This document shows positions 6,715 to 15,513 of a DNA stretch of 32,411 nt, piece after piece. Every line of letters begins with the position of its first letter. Within the stretch, counting starts at the first letter, position 1. A model generated the notes under the pieces. It did no database searches. It was not told where the DNA came from and saw nothing but the letters and a program-made list of their open reading frames with translations. Location of the stretch: IMG/VR virus record IMGVR_UViG_3300025789_000904, positions 1 through 32,411 of that record; one strand, 5' to 3'. The DNA comes from a virus. The translations under genes and the position numbers were made by a program.

Positions 6715-6899
6715 TACCAATGCCTTATGACGCCTAAGATTATAAAAGTGTTTGTAAGTACATATGATAACACAATTAAGGTACGAATGCAAGCAATTCG
6801 GTCCGATTCTTTATCCGTATTGCCTGTTTTCTCACCTAATGCTTTGGCCCAAAGGCGCCAAAAATACTTAACCTTCGTACGTAGCTGAATTACCAGCAT
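6714..6899 (-). CDS. Small single-span membrane protein
   Basis: 61 aa from ATG 6899. The basic/aromatic N-terminal part (KVKYFWRLWAKALGEKTGN) is followed by DKESDRIA and one hydrophobic span at residues ~38-58 (TLIVLSYVLTNTFIILGVIRH). The gene overlaps the end of the QueD-like gene by 32 nt and ends in TAATG with the UV endonuclease start, so it is sandwiched in an operon. A TTG at 6914 would add five residues. I recall similar small proteins with a closing IRHW in aquatic T4-like phages; function unknown. Confidence 0.65.
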   Translation of the reverse strand: MLVIQLRTKVKYFWRLWAKALGEKTGNTDKESDRIACIRTLIVLSYVLTNTFIILGVIRHW

Positions 6900-7395
6900 G
6901 TTCAAATACTTCAACTGATTTAATTCTTACTGTTGGGTTTAAGGGATAACGATGGTTGCCATTTACTAGCAAGTCTGCCATTTTGTCATAGCACATTTTG
7001 GCAAACAGTTCGCAACCTACTCCAGGTACAATACGCAGGTCGCACACCCCTGATCTACGATAGGGTTCTGTTTGTACACGATCTGGATTGCCATCGTGTT
7101 CTGGATTTGAACTCCAGCCTGCCATAGCTTTGAATCGATCTAACAATGGATCGTCTTCGGCAATTACTGTAGTATGATCAAACATATAGTCTGCCCAGGC
7201 TTTGAATTCTTTAAGTCCGCCAAAGTCCATACCCCAGTTCTTTTCGTCTAGTGTATCGCATTCAAAGATTAGTTTGATACCAATCGAGTATCCGTGTAGT
7301 AACGAGCAGTGGCTATGTGTGGCACGCCATTGTCTAAAACAGCATGAAAGTCCGCGGTCGTTACCGTATGTTTTTGTTGAATAAAATTTTGCCAT
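6868..7395 (-). CDS. queD: 6-carboxytetrahydropterin synthase-like protein (QueD/PTPS family)
   Basis: 175 aa of the QueD/6-pyruvoyl-tetrahydropterin synthase family, which turns dihydroneopterin triphosphate into a tetrahydropterin, the second step toward preQ0. Visible features: HSHCSLLHGYSIGIKLIFE (zinc site with catalytic Cys30), NWGMDFGGLK, FDHTTVI (Asp73-His74) and the closing VEVFEHAGNSATY. The usual H-G-H is H-G-Y here, which I recall as typical of the branch found in alphaproteobacteria and aquatic phages. AGGAG lies 6 nt before ATG 7395. No queC, queE, queF or folE is visible in this window, so whether it feeds tRNA queuosine, DNA deazaguanine modification or another pterin cannot be told. 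Confidence 0.9.
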   Translation of the reverse strand: MAKFYSTKTYGNDRGLSCCFRQWRATHSHCSLLHGYSIGIKLIFECDTLDEKNWGMDFGGLKEFKAWADYMFDHTTVIAEDDPLLDRFKAMAGWSSNPEHDGNPDRVQTEPYRRSGVCDLRIVPGVGCELFAKMCYDKMADLLVNGNHRYPLNPTVRIKSVEVFEHAGNSATYEG

Positions 7396-7498: not shown

Positions 7499-8959
7499 TT
7501 ACTGAGCGGCAATTTGTCCAAAGCCCGACCATTGTCCAGGTGTGCCTGTTGCTACACATACCCATCCGACATAGTCGTCGGCTTTTGGTTCAGCGTTCCA
7601 GCAGATGTCCCCAACTACGTAACTTCCGGTAGTAGGAGCGGCAATGTGTGTGGTAAAGCGTTTGCCACCAATACTAACATCTCCATTTACGCTAAAGTTC
7701 AAACTAGGATCTGGGTTGTTAATACCAACACTTAGTTTGCCAAATACTTTTACTGGCTTAGACTGTAGTGTATTATCTCCAATGCTGATTTGATTATGGT
7801 CACCGTAAATAACTTTTGCAGTAGCTTGTGTTAAAGATACAGTATTATTAAAATTCAATCCTGCATTTGTTATTTGTAAACTGTTAACACCATCGTTGAA
7901 TACGATGTCTGTAGCTGTAACTAGACCATTTACTTGTAGTTTACCCAGTAAAGTAGTATCACCTGTAACTGATAAACTATGTAGTGCGCCCACACTGGTT
8001 AGACTAGATTGTACTACAGTTGGACCTAAAATAGATTCATTTAAAACAAACTGCCCATTGGCATAGTAGCCTTTGCCTAAACCAATGTCAAAACTTTCAC
8101 TAGAGTACAAACGATCAGGACCGCTAGACATAACCAATTGACGTGTAGCACCTGTGCCAGTCCATTGTATACCCAATCCGTAGATACTTGTGTCAGCTGT
8201 TGCTGTAAATTGTAGCGGATGTGTACGGTCAATTCTATTGTCAGTTACAATATTAGTAGCAGTTAACGTACCATAGACGTTAAGAACACCGCCGCCTCTA
8301 TACTGATCGCCAACATTAACTTCGCCGCTTTGTTTGATTGTAACACGTGATAAGCCATCTGTAATGATACTAAAATCGTGACTGCTATCAGTTCCAACGT
8401 AAGCACCTGTAATATTAGGACTGCCTAATACAATGCTTATATTGTTTTCTAAAATATTAACTGCGGCACTAGGCTCGTCTGTGCCAATGCCTAATCGATT
8501 AAATGTACTGCTAAAGAAAGCAAAATTACCTAGTCTAGTATCGCCGCTTACATTAAGATTAACCAGTGTACCCAATGCACGTAGTTTGCTGTTAACAATA
8601 GTGTCGCCCAAACCACTGCTAGTAATTACTGGAACATTGTCTATCTTGTAAGTTTGATCTGGGCCTGTATCAAAACCACTACTTGCCCATAAACGTCCGC
8701 CTGTTCTATACTGTAATTGTGTTGCACCATTAGGCCAACTCCAGCTAAAACCTTGTCCGTTTAATTCTTCTTCACTAGCGGCTTGCCAATTGTTTAGATT
8801 AGAACCGTTTTCTGTAAGTATATTTCTTACATTAATAGTATCGGCTGTAATTGAACCGTTAATAGTATAGTCGCCATTGTGCGTAAATGAGCCTGTAGTA
8901 TTGGCTAATTCAGTATTAATTAACTGTACAATGCCGTCTTGAATTGATAGTTGGGTCAT
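7499..8959 (-). CDS. Fibre-like virion protein
   Basis: 486 aa, rich in Gly/Ser/Thr/Asn with repeating beta-strand segments typical of trimeric phage fibres: LGIGTDEPSAAVNI and VGINNPDPSLNFSVNGDVSI are two copies of a motif V-G-I-x-x-x-x-P, and VNLNVSGDTRLG and HSLSVTGDTTLLGKLQVNG are two more related units. The C-terminal end (YVVGDICWNAEPKADDYVGW then a G-x-W-x-G-F-G ending) resembles terminal domains of phage fibre and appendage proteins. A late-type box lies at 8981-8988, fitting a virion role. No enzymatic motif is visible. Whether it binds the host receptor or decorates the head cannot be decided. Confidence 0.82.
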   Translation of the reverse strand: MTQLSIQDGIVQLINTELANTTGSFTHNGDYTINGSITADTINVRNILTENGSNLNNWQAASEEELNGQGFSWSWPNGATQLQYRTGGRLWASSGFDTGPDQTYKIDNVPVITSSGLGDTIVNSKLRALGTLVNLNVSGDTRLGNFAFFSSTFNRLGIGTDEPSAAVNILENNISIVLGSPNITGAYVGTDSSHDFSIITDGLSRVTIKQSGEVNVGDQYRGGGVLNVYGTLTATNIVTDNRIDRTHPLQFTATADTSIYGLGIQWTGTGATRQLVMSSGPDRLYSSESFDIGLGKGYYANGQFVLNESILGPTVVQSSLTSVGALHSLSVTGDTTLLGKLQVNGLVTATDIVFNDGVNSLQITNAGLNFNNTVSLTQATAKVIYGDHNQISIGDNTLQSKPVKVFGKLSVGINNPDPSLNFSVNGDVSIGGKRFTTHIAAPTTGSYVVGDICWNAEPKADDYVGWVCVATGTPGQWSGFGQIAAQ

Positions 8960-8980
8960 GGATAAACACTCTCTTTGGAG

Positions 8981-8988
8981 TATTTATC
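8981..8988 (-). promoter_or_regulatory. Late-type promoter box GATAAATA
   Basis: GATAAATA on the minus strand 22 nt before the ATG of the fibre-like gene (8959), in the 45-bp gap after the gene at 9005-10195. Confidence 0.6.
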
Positions 8989-9004
8989 CACGATTTGCTC
9001 TACA

Positions 9005-10195
9005 TTACTGCACTTTCAACAGTACTGTATCTTCGTTAATGCGTCCATTCATCTTAGTGTCTGTAGCATTAATGTCTTCCAAGAACTTGCGTAGTTGGAC
9101 TTTGCCTGCTGACTTAAACTCTTTGAGCTTGTCTTCGGGCTTACGTACAGTCTTTTGAACGCTTTTGAATTCGTCAAATCCTGTAATTGTAGTTCCCTTA
9201 ACACCCAAGTCGTTAAACTCTGCGGCAATGTATTTGCCCAATTTACGTGTCTTAGTGTTAAACACCCAAAGTTCCTTTGAACCAATAATGTCCGCAGGGT
9301 TAATGGACACTAACTTAAGAGGCTCGTTCGATTTCATGTACTTGAGCTTGGCAACCAATTTGTCTTTAGGTACAACTTTAGTTTTACGTGGCTTACGGTT
9401 AACTTTGGCTTCCTGTGCCAACATATCACACGCACTCATAATCTCTTGGTAAAACGCAATCAAATTACGAATTTGCTTCTTTGTACGGTGGCTATAGCCC
9501 TCTTTAAGCTGTTCATCTGCCTTGCCGCTAGCCAACTCTTCAAGTTCAGCTAAATCCCTGCTGTAGAGGGTTTTAATAAGTCTAGCATGGGCGGCTTTGA
9601 CTTCTTTGCCCTTGAGCAAGTTCAAAATTTTGAACGCTTTTGGATCAAAATTTTCTGGGTCCGTTTGGAAGCCTTCAATAGCATCTTCCAATTCCTCAGT
9701 CATTTTGTAAGCAGATTCTTTAACACGCTCTTGAATTGTAGGCTGTACTACTAAGGGTTTAGTTTCCTTAGCTTCTGTTTCTTCAATATCGTTTTTACCT
9801 GCTTCAATAACTTCTACAATCTGCTCACGCAACCAAACAGTTGTATCACGACCTTGATTAAAGTCTGCTCGAACTGCGGGCATACCGCGAAGTAAACAAC
9901 TTGCAATGGCGCCCATAGTAACATTGGTACGTCCATCTTTGGTACGCTTGTAAGCGGCGATATCTTCTTTAGTGCAACCAACAGTAGCCATCCATTTTAG
10001 AACTGCGGGCTTCAAATCCTTACCGCTAAATTCCAAACGGTAGTATTGCATGGCAGTATGCCAGTGTCGCAGAAATTGTTCAGCAGTCATAGACTCAGCA
10101 TTGTCCCAAACTGGGCTGTGATCTTTTACTGCTCGTGTACGATGCGCAATTACCTGCTTTTTGGTAACGCGAGTTTTGGTAGCTGTTTTAGCCAA
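9005..10195 (-). CDS. Conserved phage protein of unknown function, early
   Basis: 396 aa, very charged, mostly helical. The N-terminal part is Lys/Arg-rich (AKTATKTRVTKKQVIAHRTR); residues ~140-250 are charged helices likely to form coiled coil; the C-terminal quarter contains SINPADIIGSKELWVFNTKT then KLGKYIAAEF and KGTTITGFD, which I recall as a conserved block in proteins of aquatic T4-like phages, unnamed. I choose a TTG start at 10195: GGAG lies exactly 6 nt upstream, while the TTG at 10201 abuts it. A perfect-consensus early promoter sits just upstream, so this is probably made early and in quantity; a DNA-associated takeover or scaffolding role is a guess. Confidence 0.82.
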   Translation of the reverse strand: MAKTATKTRVTKKQVIAHRTRAVKDHSPVWDNAESMTAEQFLRHWHTAMQYYRLEFSGKDLKPAVLKWMATVGCTKEDIAAYKRTKDGRTNVTMGAIASCLLRGMPAVRADFNQGRDTTVWLREQIVEVIEAGKNDIEETEAKETKPLVVQPTIQERVKESAYKMTEELEDAIEGFQTDPENFDPKAFKILNLLKGKEVKAAHARLIKTLYSRDLAELEELASGKADEQLKEGYSHRTKKQIRNLIAFYQEIMSACDMLAQEAKVNRKPRKTKVVPKDKLVAKLKYMKSNEPLKLVSINPADIIGSKELWVFNTKTRKLGKYIAAEFNDLGVKGTTITGFDEFKSVQKTVRKPEDKLKEFKSAGKVQLRKFLEDINATDTKMNGRINEDTVLLKVQ

Positions 10196-10226
10196 TTTCA
10201 ACTCCTGCTTTGTTTAACATGTATAT

Positions 10227-10255
10227 ATTATAGCGCCGTCTAGCTATTCTGTCAA
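10227..10255 (-). promoter_or_regulatory. Perfect-consensus sigma-70 promoter
   Basis: On the minus strand TTGACA (10250-10255), exactly 17 bp, TATAAT (10227-10232). The expected start is about 25 nt before the TTG codon at 10195. The -35 box overlaps the last codons of the upstream radical SAM gene. Confidence 0.9.
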
Positions 10256-12352
10256 GTTCTGAATACCCTTCAAATACTTGGCTTTTTCGGCATCTCTTTT
10301 GAGCATAGCTTCTAAAAGAACTTTTGGATCGTTTGGATCTTGTTGTTTTTCTGCAACAATAGGTATTATATTTTTTCTACGACGATTATGTACAGTTTCT
10401 CCAGTTTGGTTGTCTGGGCTAATCCAATCCGATATATTACCTGCCATGTTTATTGTTTCACTAAATGATTTATCATATTGCGAAGTTTCCCAAGCGTACA
10501 CACTTGATTTAGTTTCATCCAATGCACGGTGGTGGTCAAACTTATGTATCAATTTCAAATCGTAAGATCCGTCAGATTTTATTGATATACTAAAATCGGC
10601 AGTGTAATCATTTGTTAACCAACTACCAAAAGTAGCAACATCTGAAGATGGATCAAATCTTACAAAAATATCCCCCGAACCAAAATACAAATATATTGCG
10701 TAAGCTAATGAGAGATATTCATTAGCAAGGCCAAGATTGTTTGTAAATTGTTTTAGATTTACAAAATTATCGTAAGTACAATATTCTTTACTTTGTCCTA
10801 GATTTGACACACTGTAAAAACTATTAATATTTGAATACTTTTGACTATTAACAATAGTTGACCCGGCATGCGTTTCTAAAATATCCAACCAAACATGCAA
10901 TAATTTTATTCTTATAAATCGATGCAGAATAGTATTTTTAAATCCATCAGTCCACCAAGTACTTAAAAAAGTTTTATCACTTAATCTATCTTCACCGACC
11001 ATCCCGTATACTTTCCAATCTGTATACATATGACTAGCAGTAGCAGGCCCTGCTCCAAAACCAGGACTAATAGCTCCTATATGAGTTCTAGCATTTGATA
11101 TTAGTTGCAAACTGTGTAAAAAATCTATAGGTTCTTCTGTAGGAAACCCAACCATCCAGTTAACATGATTAAACAGTCCTACTTCTGCACCATCTCTTAG
11201 ATTGTTTTCAATTTCCCATATTTCAATTTTTTTACGCATATCAAGTAAGACTTTTTGACTACCTGATTCTACACCGTAACTTAAACATGTACAACCACTA
11301 TCTCTTATTTTTTCAATAAAAGCCTTATCCATGCGACCGTCACATCTTACATAACTGTTCCATCTAATATCAATTTCTTTTTCTAATACTAAATCGATCA
11401 ATCTTCTAAAATTTTTAAGATTTCCGTTAGCTAAACTATCTACAAACCAAAAACGTTTAACTCCAAATTTTTTAATTTGATGTTCTATTTCTTCTATAAC
11501 ACGTTCAGGTGTATTACTTCTAAATTTCCAAAAATATGTTTCAGCACAAAAACTACATTCTGCTATGCATCCTCTAGATGTTTCTATACTAACACCATCT
11601 GGATGTTGATAGTTAGATAAATTATAATCTGAATAATCTGGGAAAGGCAATTCTTCTAATTTTAATCGACTGTCAGTTGTGCCTATTCGTTGTCTTAGCG
11701 GAAATGTTTCTGGTAAGTTATCTAGTAGATCTATCAGGGTACCTTCGGTTTCACCTACGAAGAAATAATTAAAAGGCAAATCAAATATAGTGGATCCAGT
11801 TAATGTTTCGGGCCCACCGGCTATGAAACATGTTTCAGGCAGTTTTTCTTTTAATTCATTAAACAAGTATTCTACAGCAAATAAATTAGTATTATAAACA
11901 CTAAATCCAATTACTCGGGGGCTGTCTTCAACTAATTGATCAATAACTCGATCAAACAAGGGTTTTAAATGTGGCAATACTTTTTCAAAGAAATTTTGTC
12001 TATTAGTCCAGAGAAAATATTTTTCACCTCTCCAATAGTCTTCTCCTACTTCTTGTTTAATAACATGATACGATTCTATGTTTAAATCATATACTTTGGT
12101 ACTGTAATTGTAATGCCTGATCAACCCCACAAGTTTTGCTAGATTATAGGGAGGAAATAATATACCCCAGGCTGGCGCCATAATCATTGCTACTCGGAAT
12201 TTATCTGTTTCGTCCCAAGGTTTATCAAATATGTCAAACTTTGTATTTTTTGTTTCAAAATTTCCTAGATGACTATTAGCATGATTAATGTTATCTTTTT
12301 CTAGGATATGTTCGAGTATAACCTGATCTCTGTCTTTATTAAGATTAGTCAT
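10244..12352 (-). CDS. B12-binding-domain-type radical SAM protein
   Basis: 702 aa. Residues ~50-215 look like a cobalamin-binding-type Rossmann domain (VAMIMAPAWGILFPPYNLAK; VIGFSVYNTN; CFIAGGPETL; YFFVGETEGTL). The canonical DxHxxG cobalamin motif is not obvious, so B12 itself may not be bound. Residues ~253-470 are the radical SAM barrel: SIETSRGCIAECSFCAETYF with C262-x3-C266-x2-C269 for the 4Fe-4S cluster, then RFWFVDSLANG and YGVESGSQKVL. The last ~230 residues match nothing I recognise. The family includes methyltransferases, cyclases and thioether-forming enzymes; the substrate is unknown. It is the third of three consecutive radical SAM genes and overlaps the second by 4 nt. Confidence 0.88.
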   Translation of the reverse strand: MTNLNKDRDQVILEHILEKDNINHANSHLGNFETKNTKFDIFDKPWDETDKFRVAMIMAPAWGILFPPYNLAKLVGLIRHYNYSTKVYDLNIESYHVIKQEVGEDYWRGEKYFLWTNRQNFFEKVLPHLKPLFDRVIDQLVEDSPRVIGFSVYNTNLFAVEYLFNELKEKLPETCFIAGGPETLTGSTIFDLPFNYFFVGETEGTLIDLLDNLPETFPLRQRIGTTDSRLKLEELPFPDYSDYNLSNYQHPDGVSIETSRGCIAECSFCAETYFWKFRSNTPERVIEEIEHQIKKFGVKRFWFVDSLANGNLKNFRRLIDLVLEKEIDIRWNSYVRCDGRMDKAFIEKIRDSGCTCLSYGVESGSQKVLLDMRKKIEIWEIENNLRDGAEVGLFNHVNWMVGFPTEEPIDFLHSLQLISNARTHIGAISPGFGAGPATASHMYTDWKVYGMVGEDRLSDKTFLSTWWTDGFKNTILHRFIRIKLLHVWLDILETHAGSTIVNSQKYSNINSFYSVSNLGQSKEYCTYDNFVNLKQFTNNLGLANEYLSLAYAIYLYFGSGDIFVRFDPSSDVATFGSWLTNDYTADFSISIKSDGSYDLKLIHKFDHHRALDETKSSVYAWETSQYDKSFSETINMAGNISDWISPDNQTGETVHNRRRKNIIPIVAEKQQDPNDPKVLLEAMLKRDAEKAKYLKGIQNLTE

Positions 12353-13464
12353 GGTACAAGAGCAGCCATATTACCTAATTTGACTTGCTCATTTTTAAAA
12401 ATTGGATCTTTAAGAATTTCTATTAATTGAGATCTCTCAGGATGGTTGTCCTGCCAAATAGCCATAGTTTTAAATTGTTCATCGCCTATATGCCACCACT
12501 GTGCAATTAAGTTAGTCCAAATTACCGGTTTAGATTTAAAACCCATTTGCCATTCTACAAAGGGTTTAAGTTCCATATAGTTGTCTTTTTGAACTATTAG
12601 ATTACTTTGCCAACCATTTATATTTGGAAAACATCCATCTATAATCATTTGATCTAACAGGTCTAAATTCTTTTGTAGACGTTTAAAGTTTCCGTTCTTA
12701 CGAACAATTTTGTAAGTTTCTTCTGTTGCGGCATCTACGCTTATATTAACATAGGCAATATGCGGCCACAAAGGTTTTATAGCGTTCCAATTTTGCTCTG
12801 TCATCATAACTCCATTAGTTTGGAGATTAATGAATAAATTAGGAGGTACAGGCTTGCTGGCTAACTCTTCTAGGTAACTCCAGTACAAAGGACTAGCAAA
12901 TGGGTCACCACTACCTGTAATACTCAGTACAACTTTTGGATACTGTGATATTAGCAGGTCGACAAGTTGTTTTACACGCTCATGTATACGTACGGCTTGT
13001 TGCGCTTTATAATCCGTAAGATCTGTAGGATCCCATACAATAAGGCCGTGCCTGCAACTTGGACATTGCAAATTACAACTAGGGTCATAACTAAAATATA
13101 CATCTACCGATCTATGGGCTAGATAGTTATCTAAGTTTTCTATCGGAACAATATCCCAGTAGTATTCTCTTTTTTGATTATGTAATAAAGAATTTAGTTG
13201 CGGGCATTGATCGTTACATTCGGTAAATTTACCCTGACGCATATCGTCTTGTATACGGCGTCTGTCCATATTATTAAGGACTTCCTCCGCACTATCAGTG
13301 AGTAAATCTCCAACCCAAGTGGGTAACCAAGTTTGGCAACATGCACTAATCTTTCCGCTCATGTGTATTTCAATGTGCCTAAAAGGTGCGGCACACGCAT
13401 GTCGGGATAATACTTCTTCAGGATTACCGTAAGCAGATTCAGGTTTAATAAGATATTTGGCCAT
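12349..13464 (-). CDS. Radical SAM protein with N-terminal SPASM/twitch-like Cys domain (second of three)
   Basis: 371 aa. An N-terminal Cys region (C24, then SGKISACC at C42-C43, VGDLL, and C83/C87) looks like a half SPASM (twitch) domain for an auxiliary Fe-S cluster. The radical SAM core follows with C130-N-L-Q-C134-P-S-C137, SITGSGDPFASP in place of the usual G-G-E-P, LQTNGVMM and VNISVDAATEET. SPASM-type enzymes usually modify peptides or proteins, and here the auxiliary domain is at the front, as in the next gene, so the two look paralogous. It overlaps both neighbours (4 nt and 1 nt), which indicates translational coupling. Confidence 0.88.
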   Translation of the reverse strand: MAKYLIKPESAYGNPEEVLSRHACAAPFRHIEIHMSGKISACCQTWLPTWVGDLLTDSAEEVLNNMDRRRIQDDMRQGKFTECNDQCPQLNSLLHNQKREYYWDIVPIENLDNYLAHRSVDVYFSYDPSCNLQCPSCRHGLIVWDPTDLTDYKAQQAVRIHERVKQLVDLLISQYPKVVLSITGSGDPFASPLYWSYLEELASKPVPPNLFINLQTNGVMMTEQNWNAIKPLWPHIAYVNISVDAATEETYKIVRKNGNFKRLQKNLDLLDQMIIDGCFPNINGWQSNLIVQKDNYMELKPFVEWQMGFKSKPVIWTNLIAQWWHIGDEQFKTMAIWQDNHPERSQLIEILKDPIFKNEQVKLGNMAALVP

Positions 13465-14681
13465 TAACTTAGAATTTCCTTTAGTTCGGGAATAGTATTT
13501 AATGTATCTTCTCCACGCATTTTATCTACAGTAGCAGTAAAGTTTTTAAATTCTTCTAACCATTTTATATTTTGTGGTTTTTCCAAATGCCAGAATAAAT
13601 GTAAAAACAAATGTCTGATATCCGTATTATATTTCATACGATAGTCAACAATATAATTTTCTAGTCGCTGTCTAATTTCTTTTCTATAACTATCTGGTAA
13701 TATGCTTACGTGGAATCTAGGACTATACTCTACTACGTTAATTGAAAAATTAAGCATACGCTCGTAATCTTTTTTAATAACACCTATTTCAATTAGACGA
13801 TCAAGTATTTCTGGAATTCTGAATACATTCATGGCACTGACAGTAATACTAGGACGTATGTGTATCTTAAGTTCATTTACTGCCCTTAAGTTAGCTTCTA
13901 CATTAGCCCAATTAGTTCCGCTACGTATTAGTTCTGCTCGTTCATCAATTTCATCTATGCTGGGCCATAACCAGATTCGTTGCCCCCATTTGCGCCAATA
14001 ATCTAATACATTTTTATCTTTATAAGTTAGTTTGCTTAAATTACTATTATAAGTTAAGATAACATTGTATCTCTGTGCTTGGTCTAGCATTTCTAAAATT
14101 TGCCAGTGTTCGTCCATAAGTAATGGCTCACCGCCTGCAAAGTAAATTTTTTCTACAGTATCGATGTATTTTTTAAGAAAGTCTACGTTAGTAGCCTCAC
14201 CAACATTTTCAATTTCAATTACTTTTCTATCATTAGTAATCCAACCTAATCGTTCTGCATCTGGCAACCATGAACTACTAAACTCGGGACCACAAGTTCG
14301 ACATTTGTAATTACAAAGATTACTAAATCTAAAATCCCAATATTTTAAATCTACTTGGTCAACATGGCCATCGGGTGCAGTAATAATAGGAATATCTGCT
14401 AATTTTTTATTAAAATATTTGTTATGATTTAATCGTGTACTGCCACCACCGCTACGTTCTGATTCAAAGCATTTAGAACAAATCTTAGGTTCAATACCAT
14501 TAATCATGTCCTTGCGGAGATTTTTCATGTAATCTCCATTCCAAATTTCTTCGATAGTCTGTGTAGTTAAATCGCCTGCATATTCTTTATAATCACTAGT
14601 CATGCAACAGTGATATACTTTACCGCGAGGAATAATGTTTAGGTGTACCCAAGGAATAGCACATATAGTATTTGAAGTCAT
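13464..14681 (-). CDS. Twitch-domain radical SAM protein (first of three)
   Basis: 405 aa. N-terminal auxiliary Cys domain (C7 in CAIPWVHLNIIPRGKVYHCC, C25-C26, AGDLTTQTIEEIWNG, C68-x-x-C71), then the radical SAM core with RFSNLCNYKCRTCGPEFSSS (C123, C127, C130), IYFAGGEPLLMDEHW (the G-G-E-P SAM motif) and LTYNSNLSKL. Proteins with the R-F-S-N-x-C-N-x-K-C signature are known in aquatic T4-like phages, where the substrate is unknown. It starts 10 nt after the preceding gene ends, with only a weak ribosome site, which fits coupling. No obvious short precursor peptide lies beside it. Confidence 0.88.
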   Translation of the reverse strand: MTSNTICAIPWVHLNIIPRGKVYHCCMTSDYKEYAGDLTTQTIEEIWNGDYMKNLRKDMINGIEPKICSKCFESERSGGGSTRLNHNKYFNKKLADIPIITAPDGHVDQVDLKYWDFRFSNLCNYKCRTCGPEFSSSWLPDAERLGWITNDRKVIEIENVGEATNVDFLKKYIDTVEKIYFAGGEPLLMDEHWQILEMLDQAQRYNVILTYNSNLSKLTYKDKNVLDYWRKWGQRIWLWPSIDEIDERAELIRSGTNWANVEANLRAVNELKIHIRPSITVSAMNVFRIPEILDRLIEIGVIKKDYERMLNFSINVVEYSPRFHVSILPDSYRKEIRQRLENYIVDYRMKYNTDIRHLFLHLFWHLEKPQNIKWLEEFKNFTATVDKMRGEDTLNTIPELKEILS

Positions 14682-14691
14682 ACTGTACTTA

Positions 14692-15513
14692 TTAAGTCCA
14701 AAGACTCTGACGAATTTTTATTAGACGAATCATCATAGCTTCGTCTTCTGCTTCGTAAGCCTCTTCCATCTTGTGCATTTTGTCCATGGCAATCTTGCTC
14801 ATTTCGGCAAGCTCAGGACTTTTGTCACCGCTGAAACTTAGTCGACCACCATTGGCCATTCGTGCGGCTTCACAGTAAGCAGTCCAGCCACTTGCTTCCA
14901 TCGGCTCTGGACGATTTCGATAGACAGTAGTCCACCAAATATAAAGCTCGATAATCTCACGAGCGGCTTTGGCTTGATGTGTCAGCTCTGGAGTTTCACC
15001 TTCTTCGAGAAACTCGCTGTTGTCCAAATCTTTAGCCCAATTCAAATAAGCCATACCAGCTTCTGGACAGCGCCATGTGCGCCAGCGCAACCAGCCACTA
15101 CGCCACCAAGGAGTTTTGAACTTCTTACGTTCTTCGGCATTCCACATTACATAGTGCCATGCTTGTTCGATTTCCACGAAGTCCACAAGTTCGTTAAAAA
15201 GACAAGGGAGAAACCGATTACCAAGGTCACTCCAACGGCCAGGGCGGATATCACGAGGATGGGCAGTAAGGGCATGAGCCTTAGAAACCCAGCGGTTGTT
15301 AATGTAATACCTGACATCATTTAATCTCTCCGGAATATAAAGTAAGATGCCTTGGATGTTGTCTAACAATTCTTCGGCAATCCAATAACGCACAGGATTG
15401 TAACGCTCTGCTTCATTGCGCCACTGATCCCAATCTTCGCTGGTCTTTGCGCCACCCTTAGGGGTACCGCGAACCCAGTCTGCAAATTTTGTACAACTCC
15501 AATAATTTCTCAT
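14692..15513 (-). CDS. Conserved phage protein of unknown function, Trp-rich
   Basis: 273 aa, unusually rich in Trp and Arg (WWRSGWLRWRTWRCPEAGMA) and helical. The opening MRNYWSCTKFADWVRGTPKG is one I recall from hypothetical proteins of many large aquatic phages. No catalytic motif or membrane span is visible. AAGGA precedes the ATG and the start overlaps the previous stop as ATGA. It sits between the ligase/membrane pair and the radical SAM trio in what appears to be one early operon. Confidence 0.85.
   Translation of the reverse strand: MRNYWSCTKFADWVRGTPKGGAKTSEDWDQWRNEAERYNPVRYWIAEELLDNIQGILLYIPERLNDVRYYINNRWVSKAHALTAHPRDIRPGRWSDLGNRFLPCLFNELVDFVEIEQAWHYVMWNAEERKKFKTPWWRSGWLRWRTWRCPEAGMAYLNWAKDLDNSEFLEEGETPELTHQAKAAREIIELYIWWTTVYRNRPEPMEASGWTAYCEAARMANGGRLSFSGDKSPELAEMSKIAMDKMHKMEEAYEAEDEAMMIRLIKIRQSLWT

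Follow-up and report, generated by a model that had tools for sequence, protein, structure and literature searches.

Introduction

The genomes of aquatic phages are rich in radical S-adenosylmethionine (SAM) genes, which are mostly recorded as auxiliary metabolic genes with no substrate assigned. In pelagimyophages, cassettes of such genes share a hypervariable host recognition cluster with genes for tail fibres and GT8 glycosyltransferases, and alteration of the host O-chain was proposed (PMC7029224); 12 radical-SAM genes were also described from a marine T4-like genome (PMC5332604). The kind of locus studied here is therefore already known. Three overlapping radical-SAM genes, termed A, B and C, were analyzed on a 32,411-base DNA fragment, IMG/VR record IMGVR_UViG_3300025789_000904 (the window). 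Like the pelagimyophage cassettes, the trio was found to be variable cargo beside tail-fibre and glycosyltransferase genes, the glycosyltransferase assignments being weak here, and as in both described systems the genes belong to T4-like environmental phages (one trio record carries a T4-type gp23). Beyond those cassettes, the locus shows a defined A-B-C unit with a B12-binding-type enzyme, present in two genomic contexts, a GT9-like insert peculiar to the trio, and a gene C that has been exchanged. As far as our search shows, the unit, its GT9-like partner and the exchange are undescribed; further papers mention phage radical-SAM or glycosyltransferase genes and not this trio (PMC9301287, PMC7150976, PMC7678222, PMC12619734). 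The compact unit, its trio-specific glycosyltransferase-like partner and the natural exchanges of C make the question of the substrate testable, and with it a second one, namely whether the modification decides which phages can infect a cell.

The three genes and their cofactor motifs

The trio is a real, selected and mobile three-enzyme cassette in a variable, tail-adjacent region. Its genes and domains are as follows (window coordinates).

13464..14681, minus strand: gene A, 405 aa, N-terminal-twitch radical-SAM enzyme, NF033640 member; PF13186 and PF04055 above cut-off
14469..14663, minus strand: SPASM/twitch auxiliary-cluster domain of gene A, residues 7-71; PF13186, 4.8e-12; Cys 7, 25/26, 68 and 71 invariant in 13 homologues
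13857..14327, minus strand: radical-SAM core of gene A (PF04055), with CNYKCRTC (about 14292-14315) and a GGEP motif
12349..13464, minus strand: gene B, 371 aa, diverged twitch-type radical-SAM enzyme; found beside gene A only (12 IMG/VR loci)
12643..13080, minus strand: radical-SAM core of gene B (PF04055), with CNLQCPSC
10244..12352, minus strand: gene C, 702 aa, B12-binding-type radical-SAM enzyme, exchangeable third module
11726..11953, minus strand: B12-binding-type Rossmann domain of gene C, Pfam-matched part (PF02310, residues 134-209); the fold alignment starts at residue 50
11099..11587, minus strand: radical-SAM core of gene C (PF04055), with CIAECSFC
10247..10855, minus strand: C-terminal region of gene C, about residues 500-702; no family in Pfam or NCBIfam, fold comparison barely informative past residue 581

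A preliminary description, made from the letters of the window, had placed three overlapping genes at 10244-14681, each with a CxxxCxxC cluster and two of them with front-end twitch/SPASM-like domains. The open reading frame (ORF) coordinates agree, with overlaps of 1 nucleotide (A/B) and 4 nucleotides (B/C). All three genes belong to the radical-SAM superfamily (PF04055: A 34.7, B 44.8 and C 58.8 bits; cut-off 29.5) and are the only PF04055 genes in the whole record. The two front-end domains proved to be those of A and B, both auxiliary-cluster members with conserved cysteines (N-terminal PF13186: 46.4 and 26.6 bits; cut-off 21.5). A belongs to NF033640 over its full length (N_Twi_rSAM; 355.6 bits, curated cut-off 170); B is related, but at 93.7 bits is not a member. 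Loss of the cluster cysteines, which would have spoken against the proposal, was seen nowhere: those of CxxxCxxC are invariant across the homologue alignments of A, B and C. In each of the genes, the ratio of non-synonymous to synonymous substitution rates (dN/dS) is well under 1, indicating purifying selection. The trio is AT-richer than its surroundings (GC 0.33-0.37, against 0.37-0.47 in sampled flanking genes). Twitch radical-SAM genes had been described as usually single in phages; this was not borne out, with 2-17 radical-SAM genes per record across 22 records of these viruses.

When the profile of gene A was compared with the PDB, the best match was the auxiliary cluster domain of BtrN, a twitch radical-SAM dehydrogenase of butirosin biosynthesis. 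That domain is C-terminal in BtrN and N-terminal in A.

Recurrence of A-B-C as a unit

The order A-B-C was found in 12 more IMG/VR records (13 with the window), representing about seven lineages and two unrelated genomic contexts. Since order and overlaps are kept in independent records, the arrangement is not a product of chance. Context 1 comprises three lineages (the window group, L003/L041 and L007/L045), in which the trio occupies one shared site: a 273-aa gene lies on one side and, on the other, a 398-aa gene, after which comes a gene of tail-fibre type. Context 2 comprises four lineages (L042, L044, L046 and L047, with near copies) in unrelated genome surroundings; there the trio is convergent with a block made up of glycosyltransferase-like and tail-type genes and of a gene with a homologue annotated as baseplate protein in a single phage record. 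Of the genes observed, the two contexts have A, B and C in common and, in some records, one extra gene, but no others. B was always accompanied by A (14 B-bearing records), and in a single case, L116, A-B stands without C, a clean loss. Isolate phages gave no match to B and none to full-length C.

Also adjoining the trio in context 2 are genes (L018:3642-6335 and L019:5780-7969) for large proteins that contain repeats of a W...DP.EPPYIYVFGNQW module and are related to family f2 (see below) in their C-terminal part.

Exchange of C against A-B

The trees of A and B pair the window with L007, and that of C pairs it with L041; L046 groups with L047 as its sister in the A and B trees and not in the C tree. 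Forced agreement of the trees was rejected by the approximately unbiased (AU) test (p = 0.0285 for A, 6e-7 for B, 0.024 and 0.005 for C), with p values that are somewhat generous because the groups were picked after the identities had been seen. On these trees, C was swapped relative to A-B at least twice, as expected for modules of surface variation. The tail fibre was considered as the partner that C tracks and was rejected, the identities being discordant: the window shares 73% with L007 in the fibre and 56% in C, and 42% and 73%, respectively, with L041 or its near copy L003.

A glycosyltransferase-like gene between B and C

An extra gene of 333-358 aa lies between B and C in L041, L042 and L047, that is, in three lineages and both contexts. 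No homologue was found elsewhere in IMG/VR, and a profile search of the PDB gave no useful sequence match. In Foldseek, its model had GT9 heptosyltransferases and other GT-B enzymes as top matches (E 9e-6). Because the confidence of the model is low (predicted local distance difference test, pLDDT, 51), the GT9 assignment is drawn from the Foldseek ranking together with sequence motifs. The insert is thus a predicted GT9-like glycosyltransferase and, as such, would be the closest link of the trio itself to sugars.

The insert of L047 (8631-9707) ends in KLGNMGSLVK, almost identical to the C-terminal peptide KLGNMxxL of gene B (window 12349-12380). This resemblance may be a scar left by recombination where B meets C, or a docking tail common to both.

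Domain structure and fold of gene C

The third gene had been described as carrying a B12-binding-type domain, and the fold alignment is in line with this. PF02310 scored slightly below its cut-off of 32.1 bits in the window (30.1) and above it in the homologue of L055 (46.1). The structure of gene C, predicted from 27 homologues (pLDDT 86), aligned with B12-type radical-SAM structures over residues 50-552 with Z 17-19 at 15-18% identity. The matches were AprD4 (Z 18.9, root-mean-square deviation 3.7, 389 residues aligned), MgmA (17.9), OxsB (17.4) and TsrM (17.1), neighbouring ranks being tied. By this alignment, gene C, like these four, joins a B12-binding-type Rossmann domain to a radical-SAM core; unlike them, it carries the C-terminal region of about 200 residues that has no assigned family.

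Many NCBIfam models of B12-radical-SAM enzymes, including lipid and cofactor types, match C below their cut-offs. The best is TIGR03975 (radical-SAM C-methyltransferases of ribosomally synthesized and post-translationally modified peptides, RiPPs), of which C is not a member (105.7 bits; curated cut-off 281.85).

Genes around C in viral loci

An alignment scan for the family of gene C gave 78 viral loci, 45 of them distinct, and neighbourhoods of six genes were examined. Full-length gene C is absent from 50,697 deposited phage records; the family is environmental. Other radical-SAM genes, usually two to four, stand within six genes of C in 38 of the 45 distinct loci and are concentrated close to it (100 of 395 genes within 4 kb, against 47 of 433 further out). 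Other genes recur around C as well: family f2, glycosyltransferase-like by motif only and without a useful sequence match in a PDB profile search (24/45); carbamoyltransferases (16/45); family f4, GT8/glycogenin-like by a weak match (E 0.009; 15/45); UDP-sugar dehydrogenase-type genes (7/45); SGNH-like (6/45), APS-kinase-type (6/45) and nucleotidyltransferase-like genes (5/45); and family f11, GT9/61-like (5/45). Sulfotransferase-like genes are also present.

In L055, L059, L061 and L072 (about 8600-12100), the homologues of C have about 470 additional N-terminal residues, which match nothing in Pfam, and reach about 1170 aa. Three of the four long genes are followed by UDP-sugar dehydrogenase-type and carbamoyltransferase genes.

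Insertion site and flanking genes

The site of the trio in context 1 is bordered in the window by the following genes.

14692..15513, minus strand: conserved 273-aa gene, upstream border of the variable cassette site, syntenic in L003, L007, L022 and L026; no match in Pfam and PHROG searches
9005..10201, minus strand: conserved 398-aa gene, downstream border of the site; phrog_11903
7499..8959, minus strand: tail-fibre or virion structural protein adjoining the cassette; structural and tail-fibre matches in PHROG

The site is a cargo hotspot. The place of the trio is taken in L026 by A with another radical-SAM gene and an SGNH-like gene, and in L027 by six twitch genes with SGNH-like and DUF6492 genes. 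In phage phiN3, the homologous site holds a glycosyltransferase gene, after which comes the homologue of the 398-aa gene; in phage PAC2, that homologue stands before neck and sheath genes. In either context, the trio has tail-fibre or structural genes as immediate neighbours.

Relative to the window, A, B and C of L005 and L039 are 99-100% identical and the next two downstream genes (window 7499-10201) 94-95%, a drop that suggests a recombination breakpoint just after C. Further downstream lies a QueD-like gene (window 6868-7395), whose relatives at the equivalent place are about 33-36% identical in L003 and L007 and 87% identical in L015; as identity is so uneven among relatives at one site, this gene seems to be exchanged too.

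Substrate of the trio

The best-supported reading, which we would give about an even chance of being right, is that the trio tailors a glycan in successive radical steps and is encoded in a variable host-recognition region. On this reading, the genes are a mobile radical-SAM cassette in the tail-fibre-adjacent host-recognition region of T4-type environmental phages. A and B, with a second Fe-S cluster each, would most likely perform oxidation, dehydration or epimerization steps, and C a radical methylation or rearrangement. The three would act successively on one sugar or glycan, which glycosyltransferases may attach to a surface polysaccharide of the host or to the virion; the benefit could be superinfection exclusion, or masking of the receptor or of the virion. 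We infer the single pathway, its glycan substrate, the reactions and the benefit from the recurrence and co-transfer of the unit, the GT9-like insert, the sugar-type genes near C, the adjacency to tail fibres and the exchange of C, together with the genes, their motifs and their conservation. The nearest solved relatives, which include aminocyclitol and aminoglycoside enzymes (BtrN for A, AprD4 for C), point the same way, as does the pairing of radical-SAM cassettes with GT8 in the host-recognition clusters of pelagimyophages (PMC7029224). It is because of the neighbouring genes that a glycan is favoured over a peptide. The multi-step modification suggested earlier gains support from the transfer of the unit between contexts, the presence of A wherever B occurs, and the radical-SAM genes around C. 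The preliminary description had regarded relatives carrying each gene alone in unrelated places as grounds for abandoning its proposal, and this applies in part: C lacks radical-SAM neighbours in 7 of the 45 distinct loci, and A is joined by different partners in L023, L026 and L028. A and C are therefore modules and not parts of an obligate trio. A more far-reaching version is possible but rather doubtful: modular radical-SAM pathways in environmental T4-type phages (A-B plus a swappable C, some with a dedicated GT9-like enzyme) would build radical-tailored, for example C-methylated, glycans of the virion or host surface, as a surface-variation system with diversity arising from the exchange of radical enzymes.

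Several findings weigh against glycan tailoring. C stands alone in the 7 loci just named. The window itself has no recognizable sugar gene beside the trio, and the glycosyltransferase identities of f2, f4 and the B-C insert come from matches that are weak or of low confidence. MgmA, which methylates a protein, ties statistically with AprD4 as the fold nearest to C. Near cellular twitch relatives, genes of a sugar panel were no more frequent than in controls (3/301 against 3/300; 20 genomes of one phylum, insensitive single-sequence panel); this null result weakens the glycan inference, and no claim is made that twitch enzymes generally act on glycans.

The main rival, unlikely in our judgement, is that the trio places radical modifications (C-methylation, cross-links, epimerization) on side chains of virion proteins such as the tail fibre, or of a host protein, with no need of a precursor peptide. 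The adjoining tail-fibre and structural genes would suit it, as would the rank of MgmA, a protein glutamine methylase, and the peptide or phosphinate methyltransferase models that are nearest to C in NCBIfam; but the similarity of C is discordant with that of the neighbouring fibre in L007 and L041/L003, and elsewhere C is accompanied by sugar-type genes. The tail-fibre-adjacent position and the trio-specific GT9-like gene argue against a small molecule of aminocyclitol-like, lipid, nucleotide or cofactor type, made or altered during infection and not attached to a surface. This would fit BtrN and AprD4, which use free aminocyclitols and aminoglycosides, and the sub-threshold lipid and cofactor matches of C, and is quite improbable. 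It is distinctly improbable that the genes share the hotspot and the operon with unrelated reactions: C is exchangeable and sometimes alone or absent, and A has its other partners, but order is conserved in about seven lineages, the unit was transferred to a second context, and B is always accompanied by A.

B12-radical-SAM and SPASM/twitch enzymes co-occur in known RiPP pathways. Such a combination, and the rank of TIGR03975 as the model nearest to C, would agree with enzymes that modify a short ribosomal precursor peptide, a substrate type entertained in the preliminary description, which had also suggested a search of related genomes for a conserved short ORF. Of the ORFs of 20-100 aa, the two contexts had none in common except antisense shadows of the trio genes (a distant precursor lies outside the scope of this search); the earlier remark was that no obvious precursor peptide stands beside the trio. 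The PqqD/RiPP recognition element (RRE) domain (PF05402) was found in 0 of 23 viral records, some of them fragments. With C also far under the RiPP methyltransferase cut-off, this pathway is very improbable.

Cellular relatives

NF033640 proteins above cut-off were present in 55 of 192 genomes of the phylum to which one Halobacteriovorax metagenome-assembled genome (MAG) belongs. On a chromosome of that MAG, one twitch gene directly follows genes of the SIS, CTP-transferase-like and carbamoyltransferase types; ABC-2 exporter, GT2 and DegT genes lie in the same region. This arrangement prompted the idea that cellular twitch relatives lie in polysaccharide clusters, which was unsupported across 20 loci from other genomes against 20 controls. 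Elsewhere in the MAG (L133:11383-13613), a twitch gene is followed by a PqqD-like gene of 116 aa and a gene resembling a tail-fibre-chaperone domain, both judged by eye. A candidate bacterial glycan cluster, L032, was not counted as cellular, as another contig of the same assembly carries phage-type genes. In the Gammaproteobacteria MAG MED685 (G023; L135, L136), f2, f4 and f7 genes of phage type share a 108-kb contig with twitch radical-SAM genes in tandem; this contig probably comes from a phage and was binned with the MAG. In a bacterial genome (L204:6023-8628), a gene of 464 aa that by eye resembles B12-type radical-SAM genes shares 4 nucleotides with an overlapping twitch radical-SAM gene, a cellular parallel to the pairing of twitch and B12 types.

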